Below are positions 2,157 through 13,884 of a DNA stretch of 64,000 bases, piece after piece. The position numbers and the translations under genes are program-made. Below the pieces are notes generated by a model. The model had not been told where the DNA came from. It worked only from the letters and a program-made list of their open reading frames with translations, and did no database searches. Numbering within the stretch: position 1 is the first letter of the stretch; each line of letters starts with the position of its first letter. This DNA comes from an uncultured Caryophanales bacterium (GTDB lineage: Bacteria > Bacillota_I > Bacilli_A > RFN20 > CAG-826): contig CAMORU010000003.1 in NCBI GenBank assembly GCA_946624155.1, forward strand, positions 1 to 64,000, given 5' to 3'.

Positions 2157-3167
2157 TTATTTCTTCATGAATGATGAGAAAACATCCATCAACATCTTTG
2201 CTTGAGTCTTTAAAGGAGCTAAGTCAGATGTGCCTGAAACATTTTTGCCAACAACGCCATCGAAATTTTTAATTCCAAGAGCAACGCCGTATTCAGTAAC
2301 GGATGTGCCAAGAACAGGAATTGTGTTTGTAGCATTTGCTGCAGCTTGTAAAGCTGGTGTAGCATTTGCCATGATTAAATCGACAGAGTGTGAAACAAAT
2401 GTGTTAGCAATAACTGAACATGTTGCAGAATCATTAGCAGCGTTTTGTTCATCAATTTCAACGTTTTCAGGACCTAAGCCAGCTTTGACTGCATCAATAA
2501 ATCCTTGAGTTGCAGCATCTAATGCTGGGTGGGCAACTAATTGAGAAATACCAATTTTGTAATGATTGTTATCGGTGTTTTGGAATTCTGGAAGATCAAC
2601 GGTGCTTGAAGCATCTTTGTTAACTTCTACGTAATCTTTTGGAACTGAAACACCAACATCTTTACAGAAACTCTTGTTATATTTCTTAATTGGGTTTTCA
2701 TCATAAGCAATTGGAAGAGTTTTAATATCTTCTTTGCCAAGTAAAACATCAACAGCCATTGCGCCGGTTTTGACACCGATGTTGTAGTAGCTAATTGAAA
2801 GTGTGATTGCGCCACAACCTTTACAAATACCTTCTTCCCCAGCGAAAACTGGTTTCTTTGCTGGACGTACAATGTTGTTGATAATTTCAACGTTACTTGC
2901 ACATGTGTTGTCTGTTGGAATGTAGATAGAATCAACGTTGTTGATAGATCCATTCAAAACAGCGGAGATATCGTTTGAATCGGAGAAGGACATGAGCTTT
3001 GTAGATAAGCCTTTTTTCTCGAGTTCTTTCTTTACAACATTAACTTGATAAAGGGAATTTGCCTCAGCAGCGCAATAAAGTAAACCAACGTTTGCGTGTT
3101 GATTGCCGCATCCTGTTAAAGATGATAAAGCAGCCGCAGCTGCAACAAATAAGAATGACTTTTTCAT
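2157..3167 (-). CDS. ABC transporter substrate-binding lipoprotein (TrpX-like, ABC_sub_bind family)
   Basis: The 336-residue protein starts with a lipoprotein signal: a basic MKK, a hydrophobic Ala-rich core and the lipobox LTGC with the lipidated cysteine at residue 20. The mature part has the periplasmic-binding-protein fold of the ABC_sub_bind family, with two Rossmann-like lobes. It is the first gene of the minus-strand operon and would capture substrate outside the membrane. A GAGGA ribosome binding site sits about 9 nt before the start. The promoter region is shared with the divergent HTH-trpB gene, which suggests joint control of aromatic amino-acid uptake and synthesis. Confidence 0.87.
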   Translation of the reverse strand: MKKSFLFVAAAAALSSLTGCGNQHANVGLLYCAAEANSLYQVNVVKKELEKKGLSTKLMSFSDSNDISAVLNGSINNVDSIYIPTDNTCASNVEIINNIVRPAKKPVFAGEEGICKGCGAITLSISYYNIGVKTGAMAVDVLLGKEDIKTLPIAYDENPIKKYNKSFCKDVGVSVPKDYVEVNKDASSTVDLPEFQNTDNNHYKIGISQLVAHPALDAATQGFIDAVKAGLGPENVEIDEQNAANDSATCSVIANTFVSHSVDLIMANATPALQAAANATNTIPVLGTSVTEYGVALGIKNFDGVVGKNVSGTSDLAPLKTQAKMLMDVFSSFMKK

Positions 3168-3373
3168 AATAAAATTTCCTCTTTTTCGTTCGTTAGGTTT
3201 TCTAAAGGTTGTTTACAACTAGAACCCTAAGTTTAATTAATTAAAAATCAATGCTTAAATTCTACATAATTTAAATAAACTTGTATATAAAAATTTTTTC
3301 ATAAAGTTAAGATTACTATTGTAATTAGTTTATCGGTATTTTATAATTATTCCGCAAAGCGAGGAACGGAACA
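3168..3373. promoter_or_regulatory. Divergent control region between the TrpXYZ-like operon and HTH-trpB
   Basis: This very AT-rich stretch of 206 bp has no gene. It holds an inverted repeat GTTGT-TT-ACAAC at 3208-3219, flanked by GGTT/AACC arms, inside the minus-strand leader. This could be an operator or a leader hairpin. I looked for a T-box or trp leader peptide and saw neither. No confident -35/-10 pair is visible for either direction. Confidence 0.45.
3350..3371 (+). promoter_or_regulatory. Hairpin enclosing the trpB ribosome binding site
   Basis: TTCCG at 3350-3354 is complementary to CGGAA at 3367-3371. The Shine-Dalgarno GAGGA (3361-3365) lies in the loop, 8 nt before ATG 3374. This could act as a translational control hairpin or a protein-binding inverted repeat. 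It is short (5 bp), so the call is tentative. Confidence 0.35.
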
Positions 3374-4774
3374 ATGTATATTTCAGTTAAAGATGCTGCT
3401 AAAAAGTGGGGTGTAAATGAACGCCGTGTACGTCTTTTATGCCAAGAAAATAGAATTGAAGGATTAGTGAAGAAAGGCAAAATTTATTTAATTCCTGAAG
3501 ATGCCCCAAAACCTTTAGATAGAAGAGGCAAAACTGGCCCAATTAAATTAGCAAATATTTCCGATATTGATTTCGCAACATATCGTAAAGTTTACCCAAA
3601 CGAAGAAGGTTATTTTGGTCCTTACGGTGGTTCATTCGTAGATGAAAAAACTAAGAAAACATTTCAAGAAATTTATAATGGTTATCTTACTATTTGTAAG
3701 TCTGCAAAGTTTATTTCTGAACTACGTCAAATAAGACATGATTTCCAAGGTAGACCTACTCCAGTTTATCATTGTGAACGCTTATCTAATTATTTGGGCA
3801 AAGTTCAAATTTATTTAAAACGTGAAGATTTAAATCATATGGGATCCCACAAATTAAATAACTGTATGGGACAAGCTTTGCTTGCAAAAACTCTAGGAAA
3901 GAAAAAGTTGATCGCTGAAACAGGTGCTGGAAGTCACGGTTCAGCTGTCGCAACAGCAGCCGCTTACTTTGGCCTTAAATGTGATATTTATATGGGCGAA
4001 GTTGATATGATGAAGCAAGCTCCAAATGTAAATCGTATGCGCATTTTAGGTGCTAATGTTATACCTGTAAAAGAAGGCACTAGAACATTAAAAGAAGCGG
4101 TGGATGCTGCTCTTGAAGCGTTCTTAAAAGAGCAAAAAGATGCTTTTTATCTAATGGGTTCTGCTGTTGGTCCTCATCCTTATCCTTTAATTGTTAGAGA
4201 ATTCCAAGAAATTATAGGTAGAGAAGCACGTGAACAATTCCAAGAAATGACTGGAGAATTACCAGATATTGTTTGTGCTTGTGTTGGCGGCGGAAGTAAC
4301 GCAATCGGTATGTTTGAAGCGTTCCTAAATGATCCAGTTCAAATTGTCGGAGTTGAACCAATGGGTGAAGGTAAAGAACCAGGAAAAAATGCCGCAACAA
4401 TGACTTTCGGTAAAGAATATGTTTTGCATGGTTTCAAATCTAAGGTCTTAATGAATAAAGATGGTAGCGTAGCAAATGCTTATTCTATTGCATCAGGTTT
4501 AGATTATCCTGGTGTCGGACCAGAACATGCTTTCCTCCATGATATTGGAAGAGTTCAATATGAGACAGTTACTGATGAAGAAGCTTTGGAAGCATTTAAA
4601 CTCTTATGTAGACTTGAAGGTATTATTCCTGCAATTGAATCAGCGCATGCTCTAGCGTATGCTATTAAAATAGCAAGAACTAGGAATTCAGGTTCAATTC
4701 TTGTCAATTTAAGTGGTAGAGGAGATAAAGACTTATCCTACTTAATGGAGAAATATCCTGATCTTCTTAAATAA
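3374..4774 (+). CDS. trpB: Tryptophan synthase beta chain with N-terminal helix-turn-helix domain
   Basis: Residues 1-55 look like an excisionase/MerR-type helix-turn-helix ([16 protein letters not shown] followed by a wing with KKGKIYLIP). Residues about 70-466 are a complete TrpB. The PLP lysine is K160 in GSHKLNN, the catalytic Glu is E182 in AETGAG, and the phosphate-binding GGGSN is at 305-309. The Gln that normally follows GAG (GAGQHG in most TrpB) is Ser187. TrpB condenses indole with serine using PLP. No trpA or other trp biosynthesis gene is in the window, so indole salvage is plausible. The HTH is inferred to bind DNA, perhaps the adjacent divergent promoter. It is a single-gene transcript bounded by its own terminator. 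Confidence 0.9.
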
Positions 4775-12292: not shown

Positions 12293-12972
12293 TGAAAATT
12301 AGTGATATTCCTATTAATTTACGCCCACGCGAAAAAGCACTACAATACGGAATTGAAGAACTTTCAGATCAGGAACTACTTACTTTATTAATTGGAAGTG
12401 GCGGAAAGGGGAATTCCGCAATTGATATAGCAATTGAACTCCTTTCTAGCCACGCTAATTCTTTAGAGCTATTATCACGAAGTAATTATCAAGCTTTATC
12501 AAGATATCTTGGACTTAAAAAATCGATTGCATTACGACTTTTAGCAACGTTTGAGTTTCATAAAAGATTAATTTCAAATAAATATCAAAACCTTGATAAA
12601 ATTGAATCAAATAATGATGTCTATTTAAGGTTCAAATATTTAGAAAATTTTGACCAAGAAAATCTAGTTGTTTTGATGTTAGATTTAAAGCATAGAATTA
12701 TTAAAGAAAAAACACTTTATAAAGGCACTTCTGATTCGTTTAATATTGATATTAGAGAAGTAATTCAAGAGTTAATTTTAGCTAAAGCTAAATATTTCTA
12801 TCTAATCCATAATCATCCTGATGAAGAATCTAATCCTAGTGATGAAGATATTATCGCGACAAAAGTCATAGAAAAATCCGCGAAAAATTTAGGGATAAAT
12901 CTGATTGATCATTTAATTATTTTTAAAGGTGGATTTTCATGCATAAAAAAAGAAAAAGTAAACAAAATTTAA
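12292..12972 (+). CDS. radC: RadC family JAB-domain protein
   Basis: A 226-residue protein. I chose ATG 12292, where the family-typical MKISDIPINLRPREKAL begins, over an in-frame ATG 21 bp upstream that lies inside the small peptide gene. The N-terminal helix-hairpin-helix region is followed by a JAB/MPN-type metal site, HNHPDEESNPSDED, at about residues 172-185. Despite the name, its function in DNA repair is not established. In Bacillus radC lies a few genes upstream of rplU, as here, so it is probably vertically inherited. Its end overlaps the next gene by 34 bp. Confidence 0.92.
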   Translation: MKISDIPINLRPREKALQYGIEELSDQELLTLLIGSGGKGNSAIDIAIELLSSHANSLELLSRSNYQALSRYLGLKKSIALRLLATFEFHKRLISNKYQNLDKIESNNDVYLRFKYLENFDQENLVVLMLDLKHRIIKEKTLYKGTSDSFNIDIREVIQELILAKAKYFYLIHNHPDEESNPSDEDIIATKVIEKSAKNLGINLIDHLIIFKGGFSCIKKEKVNKI

Positions 12973-13328
12973 ACTATGACATAAATATTGTTGAAGCTCT
13001 TAAAAAACTTCCTATACCTTTGATAACGTTTGATGGTCATGAAGTCTATTTTGATCAAGATAAAAGAAACGAAACAATTTATGAACATATTGCGAATAAA
13101 TATCATCATCTACATGTTGTTGATATAAACGAAATACCAAAAATTCTTAAAAATCGGGAAAGTTTGTTTCTAGATCAAAATGGTCGGAAATATAGATCGT
13201 ATGTAGGATTAAGAGGCAAGAAAAGTGAAAAGCCACATTATTTACGAATTATAACTATGATTAAGAAGAATAATAAAGAGACGATTGTTACTATTTATCC
13301 TGAGAAAAAAGCATTGTTATTTAAATAA
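12939..13328 (+). CDS. Small basic protein of unknown function, possible BECR-fold nuclease-like domain
   Basis: The frame gives 129 residues from ATG 12939, with an AGGTGG site 6 nt upstream, and overlaps the radC end by 34 bp in another frame. The N-terminus is strongly basic (HKKRKSKQ). The C-terminal half alternates HLHVVDINEIPKILKN, a tyrosine pair, YLRIITMIKK and ETIVTIYPEKK. This loosely resembles phage/colicin RelE-type (PBECR) nuclease domains, in which a short helix is followed by a twisted sheet ending in IVTIY. That is a pattern impression and is not established. No antitoxin-like partner is visible. It lies directly before the tandem RNAs. Confidence 0.6.
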   Translation: MHKKRKSKQNLNYDINIVEALKKLPIPLITFDGHEVYFDQDKRNETIYEHIANKYHHLHVVDINEIPKILKNRESLFLDQNGRKYRSYVGLRGKKSEKPHYLRIITMIKKNNKETIVTIYPEKKALLFK

Positions 13329-13342
13329 TTATAGATTATTAT
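13314..13342 (+). promoter_or_regulatory. Sigma-A promoter of structured RNA copy 1
   Basis: TTGTTA (13314-13319) and TATTAT (13337-13342) are separated by 17 bp. It overlaps the 3' end of the preceding coding sequence. The expected start is the G at about 13349, the first base of GCCAAAGG. Confidence 0.7.
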
Positions 13343-13348
13343 AAATAT

Positions 13349-13516
13349 GCCAAAGGTGGAAAATTCAGCAAATCGACCACGACGCATTCTAGCCATAGGA
13401 TGGACTGACGGTGATGCGGGGGTGGAGCAGAACAGATGACCTCTGACGAATTAGTAGCTCCCTTAATTAGGCTGGCCCGCTTGGCATATTGGCATCTCTG
13501 CAGGGATGCTTTTTTT
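13349..13516 (+). ncRNA. Structured RNA, copy 1 of a tandem pair (unnamed; raiA-type RNA should be tested)
   Basis: An RNA of about 168 nt with its own promoter and terminator. Closing stem: GCCAA at the 5' end with TTGGC at 13481-13485. Inner stems: CGCA(T) at 13383 with (A)TGCG at 13414, CCAC (13377-13380) with GTGG, GGAGC (13424-13428) with GCTCC (13457-13461), and CAGA/TCTG around TGACC. Two GTGG segments (13356-13359 and 13422-13425) can each pair with the single CCAC, allowing alternative folds. The terminator GCATC/GATGC (13492-13509) with a T run ends it. No open frame of note. The family is not identified with confidence; size and host range make the raiA RNA class a first candidate. 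Confidence 0.75.
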
Positions 13517-13530
13517 ATTTAAAATAATTA

Positions 13531-13559
13531 TTGATAATTAATTCTTTATGAATTATTAT
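13531..13559 (+). promoter_or_regulatory. Sigma-A promoter of structured RNA copy 2
   Basis: TTGATA (13531-13536) and TATTAT (13554-13559) are separated by 17 bp. The expected start is the G at about 13566, again the first base of GCCAAAGG, exactly as in copy 1. Confidence 0.75.
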
Positions 13560-13565
13560 AATTAT

Positions 13566-13727
13566 GCCAAAGGTGGAAATTTCAGTAGTCGACCACGACG
13601 CACCCTAGACATAGGTTGGTACGGTGATGCGGGGGTGGAGCTAACAGATGACCTCTGACGTATCAGTCGCTCCCTTAATCATGCTGGCCCGCTTGGCAAT
13701 CGGCATCTCTGCAGGGATGCTTTTCTT
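13566..13727 (+). ncRNA. Structured RNA, copy 2 of a tandem pair
   Basis: It is about 162 nt and aligns with copy 1 over its whole length. Invariant blocks include GCCAAAGGTGGAAA, TCGACCACGACGCA, GGTGATGCGGGGGTGGAGC, AACAGATGACCTCTGACG, GCTCCCTTAAT and GCTGGCCCGCTTGGCA. Differences cluster in loops and linkers (13583-13590, 13605-13622, 13661-13668), while stem positions are kept, as expected for a functional RNA. The terminator stem (13703-13720) is identical to that of copy 1 apart from the T tract. The high GC of the conserved blocks contrasts with the AT-rich flanks. Confidence 0.75.
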
Positions 13728-13776: not shown

Positions 13777-13884
13777 CGTTGTCGCCTCACGAGCTACAAC
13801 CGCATAGAAAAGGTGAGTCAAACTTAATGGCTAAGCCATTAGACCTTAATAGCGAGTCCTTAGTGAGAAAGTAGAGGTATTTAA
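13777..13884 (+). promoter_or_regulatory. L21 ribosomal protein leader
   Basis: A 5' leader of about 108 nt before rplU with several stems: CTCAC with GTGAG (within 13792-13819), and TAATGGC/GCCATTA around TAA (13827-13843). A structured L21 leader upstream of rplU-prp-rpmA is known in Bacillota and is thought to bind a ribosomal protein for feedback control. Identification here rests on position and structure, not on a covariance search. Confidence 0.6.

Follow-up and report, generated by a model that had tools for sequence, protein, structure and literature searches.

Within the 64,000-nucleotide (nt) stretch of DNA analysed here (the window; contig CAMORU010000003.1 of an uncultured Caryophanales bacterium), a small protein gene and two tandem copies of a structured RNA lie between radC and rplU. 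With a probability of roughly 0.7, we read this locus as a two-component module similar to type III toxin-antitoxin systems, in which a pseudoknotted RNA would bind and block a small BECR-fold endoribonuclease. A sequence-only reading of the window had described the RNA as duplicated, free-standing and conserved in structure, with its own promoters and terminators, and had left the adjoining gene unexplained. The former description is borne out by the promoter boxes, the hairpins, the mean column identity of 91% between the copies and the covariation across homologues, while the gene at 12939-13328 is now accounted for as the conserved partner of the RNA. The features of the locus are as follows.

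12939..13328, + strand: 129-amino-acid (aa) partner protein, predicted BECR-fold RNase and putative toxin (from linkage, selection, structure prediction, weak fold matches and residue conservation)
13314..13342, + strand: promoter of RNA copy 1, -35 TTGTTA at 13314-13319 and -10 TATTAT at 13337-13342 (read from the sequence; same -10 phasing across the family)
13349..13485, + strand: RNA copy 1, long form (64.8 bits with covariance model R1; family covariation); helices P1 13349-13353/13481-13485, P2 13356-13359/13377-13380, A 13366-13369/13471-13474, B 13416-13420/13476-13480
13492..13516, + strand: intrinsic terminator of copy 1, hairpin 13492-13509 plus T run
13531..13559, + strand: promoter of RNA copy 2, -35 TTGATA at 13531-13536 and -10 TATTAT at 13554-13559 (read from the sequence)
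13566..13697, + strand: RNA copy 2, long form (70.4 bits with R1; family covariation); helices P1 13566-13570/13693-13697, P2 13573-13576/13593-13596, A 13583-13586/13683-13686, B 13629-13633/13688-13692
13703..13727, + strand: intrinsic terminator of copy 2, hairpin 13703-13720 plus T run

A nuclease-like gene linked to the RNA

Relatives of the RNA were first collected by a pattern scan of a genome-contig collection and then BLAST, followed by the covariance model R1, built from 18 sequences. Across 279 genomes of one order of Bacilli, R1 gave 136 matches in 71 genomes, with up to seven copies per genome, some of them 3-17 nt apart. These matches include a partial one (G022) and two marginal ones. 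G403, at 34.4 bits, seems spurious, whereas G128, at 28.2 bits, has a homologous protein ahead of it and is therefore probably genuine. In 36 of 82 RNA rows, the nearest upstream open reading frame (ORF) is on the same strand, codes for 111-162 aa and ends 15-45 nt short of the RNA; the remaining rows are in many cases additional copies, tandem or dispersed. Among 39 hand-picked upstream ORFs, 36 are homologous, the window gene included, and three are not. (A5 includes the partial frame L071 (G070), its gene reported with stops.)

An independent test of this linkage is provided by a protein-profile search of the 279 genomes, which found 69 places, or 63 once six fragment rows were dropped. At 61 of these 63 the RNA lies directly downstream in the same orientation, at a distance of 22-116 nt from the match, and genomes with two protein loci have the RNA downstream there too. 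The co-occurrence of RNA and protein gives a hypergeometric P of 4e-36 with genomes treated as independent, and their distances correlate (Mantel r 0.79, 34 pairs, 0 of 5000 permutations). The two exceptions are G090, where the gene has a stop and 131 nt separate the end of the match from the contig end, with no RNA visible there, and G127, where a 187-aa homologue is followed by an element that R1 missed and for which no clear promoter or terminator was noted. Scored with a topology descriptor that was written after the sequences were seen, the latter element tops all 100 shuffles, narrowly (54.0 vs 53.4).

The reverse relation is far looser: 75 of the 136 RNAs have no adjacent protein gene, and 22 genomes carry only the RNA compared with one that carries only the protein. 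Stops interrupt six of the 63 protein genes, and the RNA is kept beside five of these six. The order radC-RNA-rplU is likewise kept without the protein gene in the closest relative (L011/L013), whose single RNA lies 25 nt after radC, a position that in the window is occupied by the protein gene and two RNAs. Since RNA without protein is common and protein without RNA was met once, the asymmetry is the one expected of a toxin and its antidote. The leading alternative, which we regard as unlikely, is a functional ribonucleoprotein of nuclease and RNA, the latter serving as cofactor, guide or regulated substrate and not as an antidote. Tight linkage and co-divergence would suit any obligate ribonucleoprotein, and the RNAs that stand alone could be alternative guides or substrates; however, RNA-only genomes and RNAs beside stop-bearing genes suit an antidote better than a cofactor, and no variable guide-like segment is seen by eye in the alignment. 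Far less probable is a housekeeping, trans-acting small RNA that merely happens to lie beside a conserved gene. Such an RNA would account for the sigma-70-type promoters and the several dispersed copies per genome, but not for an RNA directly behind 61 of 63 protein genes, including those of genomes with two such loci.

As for the protein, ratios of nonsynonymous to synonymous substitution rates of 0.04-0.35 in 11 pairs of relatives indicate that it is under purifying selection. Its AlphaFold2 model has a mean predicted local distance difference test score of 87.6, and the fold matches of this model, each weak individually, are mostly to RelE, BrnT, HigB and CdiA-CT toxins. In Pfam, six of ten members weakly match MuF_C, PBECR3 or DUF4258, the last of which we take to be a BECR family, and none reaches a gathering score; hhalign against a PBECR3 alignment gives 85% (E 5.7e-6 for that single comparison). 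His50 and His56 are conserved in 30 of 30 sequences and Thr/Ser118 in 29 of 30. Altogether, the protein resembles an RNase of the BECR fold that has the His and Thr/Ser residues expected of one, and RNase activity is predicted from this fold and these active-site residues. No ToxN-type match appeared among up to ten family members in Pfam, NCBIfam and PADLOC, and NCBIfam gave no meaningful match to the protein. Four further hits were regarded as chance: for the window protein, PDC-M04B (E 0.007) and PDC-M13A (E 0.01) in PADLOC; for L076, Cas13-ApeA (E 0.0007) and phrog_10391 (E 0.0003).

Fold and transcription of the RNA

The RNA is closed by P1, a helix of 5 bp, followed by P2 (GUGG/CCAC, nearly invariant), P4 (2 bp) and the hairpin P5. 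Helix B abuts P1, and helix A pairs the loop of P2 with the loop of B, crossing B in a pseudoknot. Copies of about 83-173 nt overall fall into a short form of ~86 nt and a long form of ~132 nt, the latter enlarged by a P6/P7 domain inserted between B and A'. Of 27 long-form sequences, 18 have every pair of P6 and 23 every pair of P7 according to a crude script, the P7 pairs including UAGA/UCUA, CAGA/UCUG, UCCA/UGGA and UCGA/UCGA. In some copies GGUGGARAUG is followed by one more hairpin, and no internal short repeats were seen by eye within the copies.

The sequence-only reading had proposed covariation in homologues as a check, and it was found. Standard pairs fill 94.0% of pair cells across the 18 sequences, and both sides change in 17 of 26 pairs (0 of 500 shuffles); pair types are fewer than in shuffles, and pairing falls to 21-48% when the partners are slid. 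Among 73 distinct sequences, full pairing is found in 71 for P1 (shuffle mean 38.1), 71 for A (35.6), 62 for B (21.7) and 54 for P4, the 5' strands of A and B having been chosen to fit. This set leaves out L075, L076 and L025, gives L020 and L029:2714 a corrected 5' end, and has the P1 3' strand of L017 set by hand. At the distant G128 locus, P1, A, B and the P5 hairpin are kept with largely different letters. The covariation supports a pseudoknot, with helices A and B crossing inside a P1-closed fold, and it is this comparison across homologues that marks the window copies as structured, their single-sequence folding energies being uninformative (z +0.78 and +0.89). The suggestion that two GTGG segments compete for one CCAC is not supported, as the first, in P2, is nearly invariant and the second is not conserved, being absent in L013.

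In the window, whose RNA copies start at 13349 and 13566, 17 bp separate the -35-like and -10 boxes in both promoters, and the -35 of copy 1 falls within the protein gene. Of 81 distinct upstream regions across the family, 66 have their best -10 match ending exactly 6 nt ahead of the RNA start. A perfect TATAAT occurs in 41 of the 81 vs 6% of shuffled regions; at most one mismatch to the -10 is found in 74, but likewise in ~45% of shuffles. In L030, L059, L060 and L063, a second copy follows a few nt behind another one and has no -10 of its own; it therefore probably shares a transcript with the preceding copy. A longer stretch, TGTCAAAA...TTTTCAATC...GATTGAT before the -10, is common to the ~60 nt ahead of seven mostly short-form copies (L021 1821, L040 1058, L042 1499, L060 140, L064 1913, L078 1501 and L083 1501), and might be regulatory or mark a unit that dispersed recently.

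The possibility that the RNA is a riboswitch or leader of rplU or other downstream genes is barely credible. It is true that rplU lies downstream and co-directional in both the window and L011, and that 49 of 70 scored downstream ORFs are co-directional; the other 21, by a crude ORF caller, are convergent, and a terminator-like hairpin follows 68 of 81 copies (a count without shuffle control). Moreover, a separate element between copy 2 and rplU, at 13788-13850, weakly matches the L21 leader (19.1 bits vs a gathering score of 36) and is probably a diverged member of that class.

Least probable of all is a diverged member of the raiA (ModT) class, the identity first put forward as plausible. 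Like raiA (RF03072), the window RNA is a free-standing, compact pseudoknotted RNA of Bacillota with a variable internal domain; raiA as described in the parts of PMC11706538 and PMC11751092 drawn on here is about 210 nt long and has another helix order, and no nuclease partner is described for it there. The RNA is shorter, is linked to a nuclease-like gene, and departs in helix order from the published structure (PMC11751092, in part), the comparison being with the covariance model and that structure and not with a raiA sequence directly. Rfam scans by cmscan, with the raiA model included, gave no raiA match, whether on the locus (E <= 10) or on the loci of 13 relatives (E <= 1). Wider raiA scans (0 of 57 at E <= 1, with one sub-threshold control match; 0 of 245, with none) carry little weight and do not show absence, as no control genome rose above the cut-off. 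Nor does Rfam otherwise place the RNA: there is no match over the window at gathering thresholds, only the weak L21 leader and two chance-level matches on the locus at E <= 10, and nine matches on the 13 relatives' loci, none of them on the RNA.

Distribution and the reversed arrangement

The pattern scan of genome contigs gave two matches: L011, a real relative from a sheep-rumen Bacilli metagenome-assembled genome with a single RNA copy between radC and rplU, and L010, which lies within coding sequence and looks like chance. BLAST within the family of L011 found matches in 30 of 224 genomes. A 395-genome sample of the class had RNA matches in 10, all already found in the order search, and the RNA is thus confined to one order of Bacilli at this search sensitivity; the relatives that carry RNA and protein together are many related gut and rumen bacteria. 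Plasmid and phage collections searched for the RNA gave no match, and nine matches in a 16-mer scan of viral contigs look like chance. One locus (L029 1501-2853) holds four RNA copies of differing forms on one strand within 1.4 kb, three of them in a row with gaps of 78 and 96 nt.

Beyond the order, the protein search gave two weak extra matches, G680 (E 0.0019) and G495 (E 0.007, with stops). The former, from another family of Bacilli, is a PBECR3 protein (PF18812, E 1.2e-16), and upstream of the PBECR3 gene at all seven loci examined there is an RNA of the same topology, then a terminator (by eye), then the gene. Six of eight PBECR3 loci were inspected, two with proteins of 499-542 aa being left out, and L136 was added later; at L135 the called ORF start overlaps the RNA and a later start was assumed. 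The Pfam gathering score for PBECR3 is reached by all six scanned (L119/L128, L129, L130, L131, L135 and L136; all seven loci except L134). In these RNAs, P1 encloses P2 with A in its loop, a hairpin, and B with A' in its loop, beside P1'. Under the descriptor mentioned above, the number of shuffles in 100 that reach the score is 0 for L128, L134, L135 and L136, 4 for L129, 5 for L130 and 7 for L131, and B varies between loci (GUAG/CUGC, GUAG/CUAC, GUAAG/CUUAC, GUAGGG/UCCUAC). An Rfam scan of the G680 RNA gave nothing beyond a chance-level match at its terminator (E 1.2).

Given the few sequences, the shared topology is suggestive. We see an even chance that one ancestral P1-closed fold, in which the P2 loop pairs with the loop of B, became antitoxin to at least two BECR branches whichever way the genes are arranged, with the nuclease ahead of the RNA in one order of Bacilli and the sequence RNA, terminator, PBECR3 in another family. 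If this is so, RNA-controlled toxins would include a new superfamily apart from ToxIN and AbiF, and the PBECR nucleases that occur solo would acquire a partner. One PBECR3 gene, preceded by an RNA of this kind and a terminator, lies on a predicted viral contig (L136, ~2820-3381), and the module may therefore travel on phage-like elements.

Proposed mode of action and relation to known systems

If the module acts as we propose, the pseudoknotted RNA would bind and mask the nuclease as the RNA antitoxins of type III systems do. Because the RNA has a sigma-70-type promoter of its own, with the -35 embedded in the last part of the putative toxin gene, the antitoxin could stay in excess; toxin transcripts that read through would have the RNA as their 3' end and share its terminator. 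A stop in transcription, as under phage attack or stress, might then let the shorter-lived RNA decay first and free the nuclease to become toxic. According to the portions of PMC5086642 and PMC12373285 drawn on here, the nuclease of type III systems is kept masked by the RNA and released when that RNA, the shorter-lived partner, is lost. For the window family, the computations bear on the RNA and its fold, the linkage, the selection on the protein and a predicted nuclease fold; RNA cleavage, binding, inhibition, toxicity and the trigger are inferred.

The window family shares with ToxIN, CptIN and TenpIN, as partly described in PMC5086642, a small endoribonuclease gene beside a pseudoknotted noncoding RNA that can be repeated; the linked RNA (61 of 63) and the covarying helices A and B are its counterparts. 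It differs in its predicted BECR/RelE-like toxin and its RNA of about 83-173 nt with P1-closed crossing helices, compared with an array of 34-50 nt repeats (PMC12373285, in part) and a ToxN-homologous toxin. The single-promoter operon of RNA, terminator and toxin is also absent here, where the protein comes first and the RNA follows with its own promoter; the PBECR3 loci do show the classical order. The AbiF/RCd22 pair of Clostridioides difficile similarly has a toxic protein neutralised by binding a noncoding RNA with its own terminator, but the account in PMC12373285, as far as drawn on, gives a HEPN-like protein and a 33-37 nt abiF motif (RF03085) in an RNA upstream of the gene, whereas the window RNA matches no Rfam family. 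The PBECR and MuF_C phage nucleases (PF18812, PF18819) resemble the partner protein in profile; in the part of PMC5512222 drawn on here they are domains of phage virion or polyvalent proteins and solo phage proteins, with no RNA partner mentioned.

No RNA antitoxin for a BECR or PBECR protein was found described in open-licence PubMed Central papers. RNA antitoxins acting directly on a protein are few in the sources consulted, namely those of the ToxN relatives and AbiF. AvcID is said to contain a further one. Its own gene order, toxin fold and RNA architecture set the window family apart, and we therefore do not assign it to ToxIN, CptIN, TenpIN or AbiF. If the proposed reading is right, a hypothetical protein family with 396 database matches would gain a likely role, solo PBECR3 genes would be explained, and control by RNA would extend to the very widespread BECR/RelE-like toxin fold.
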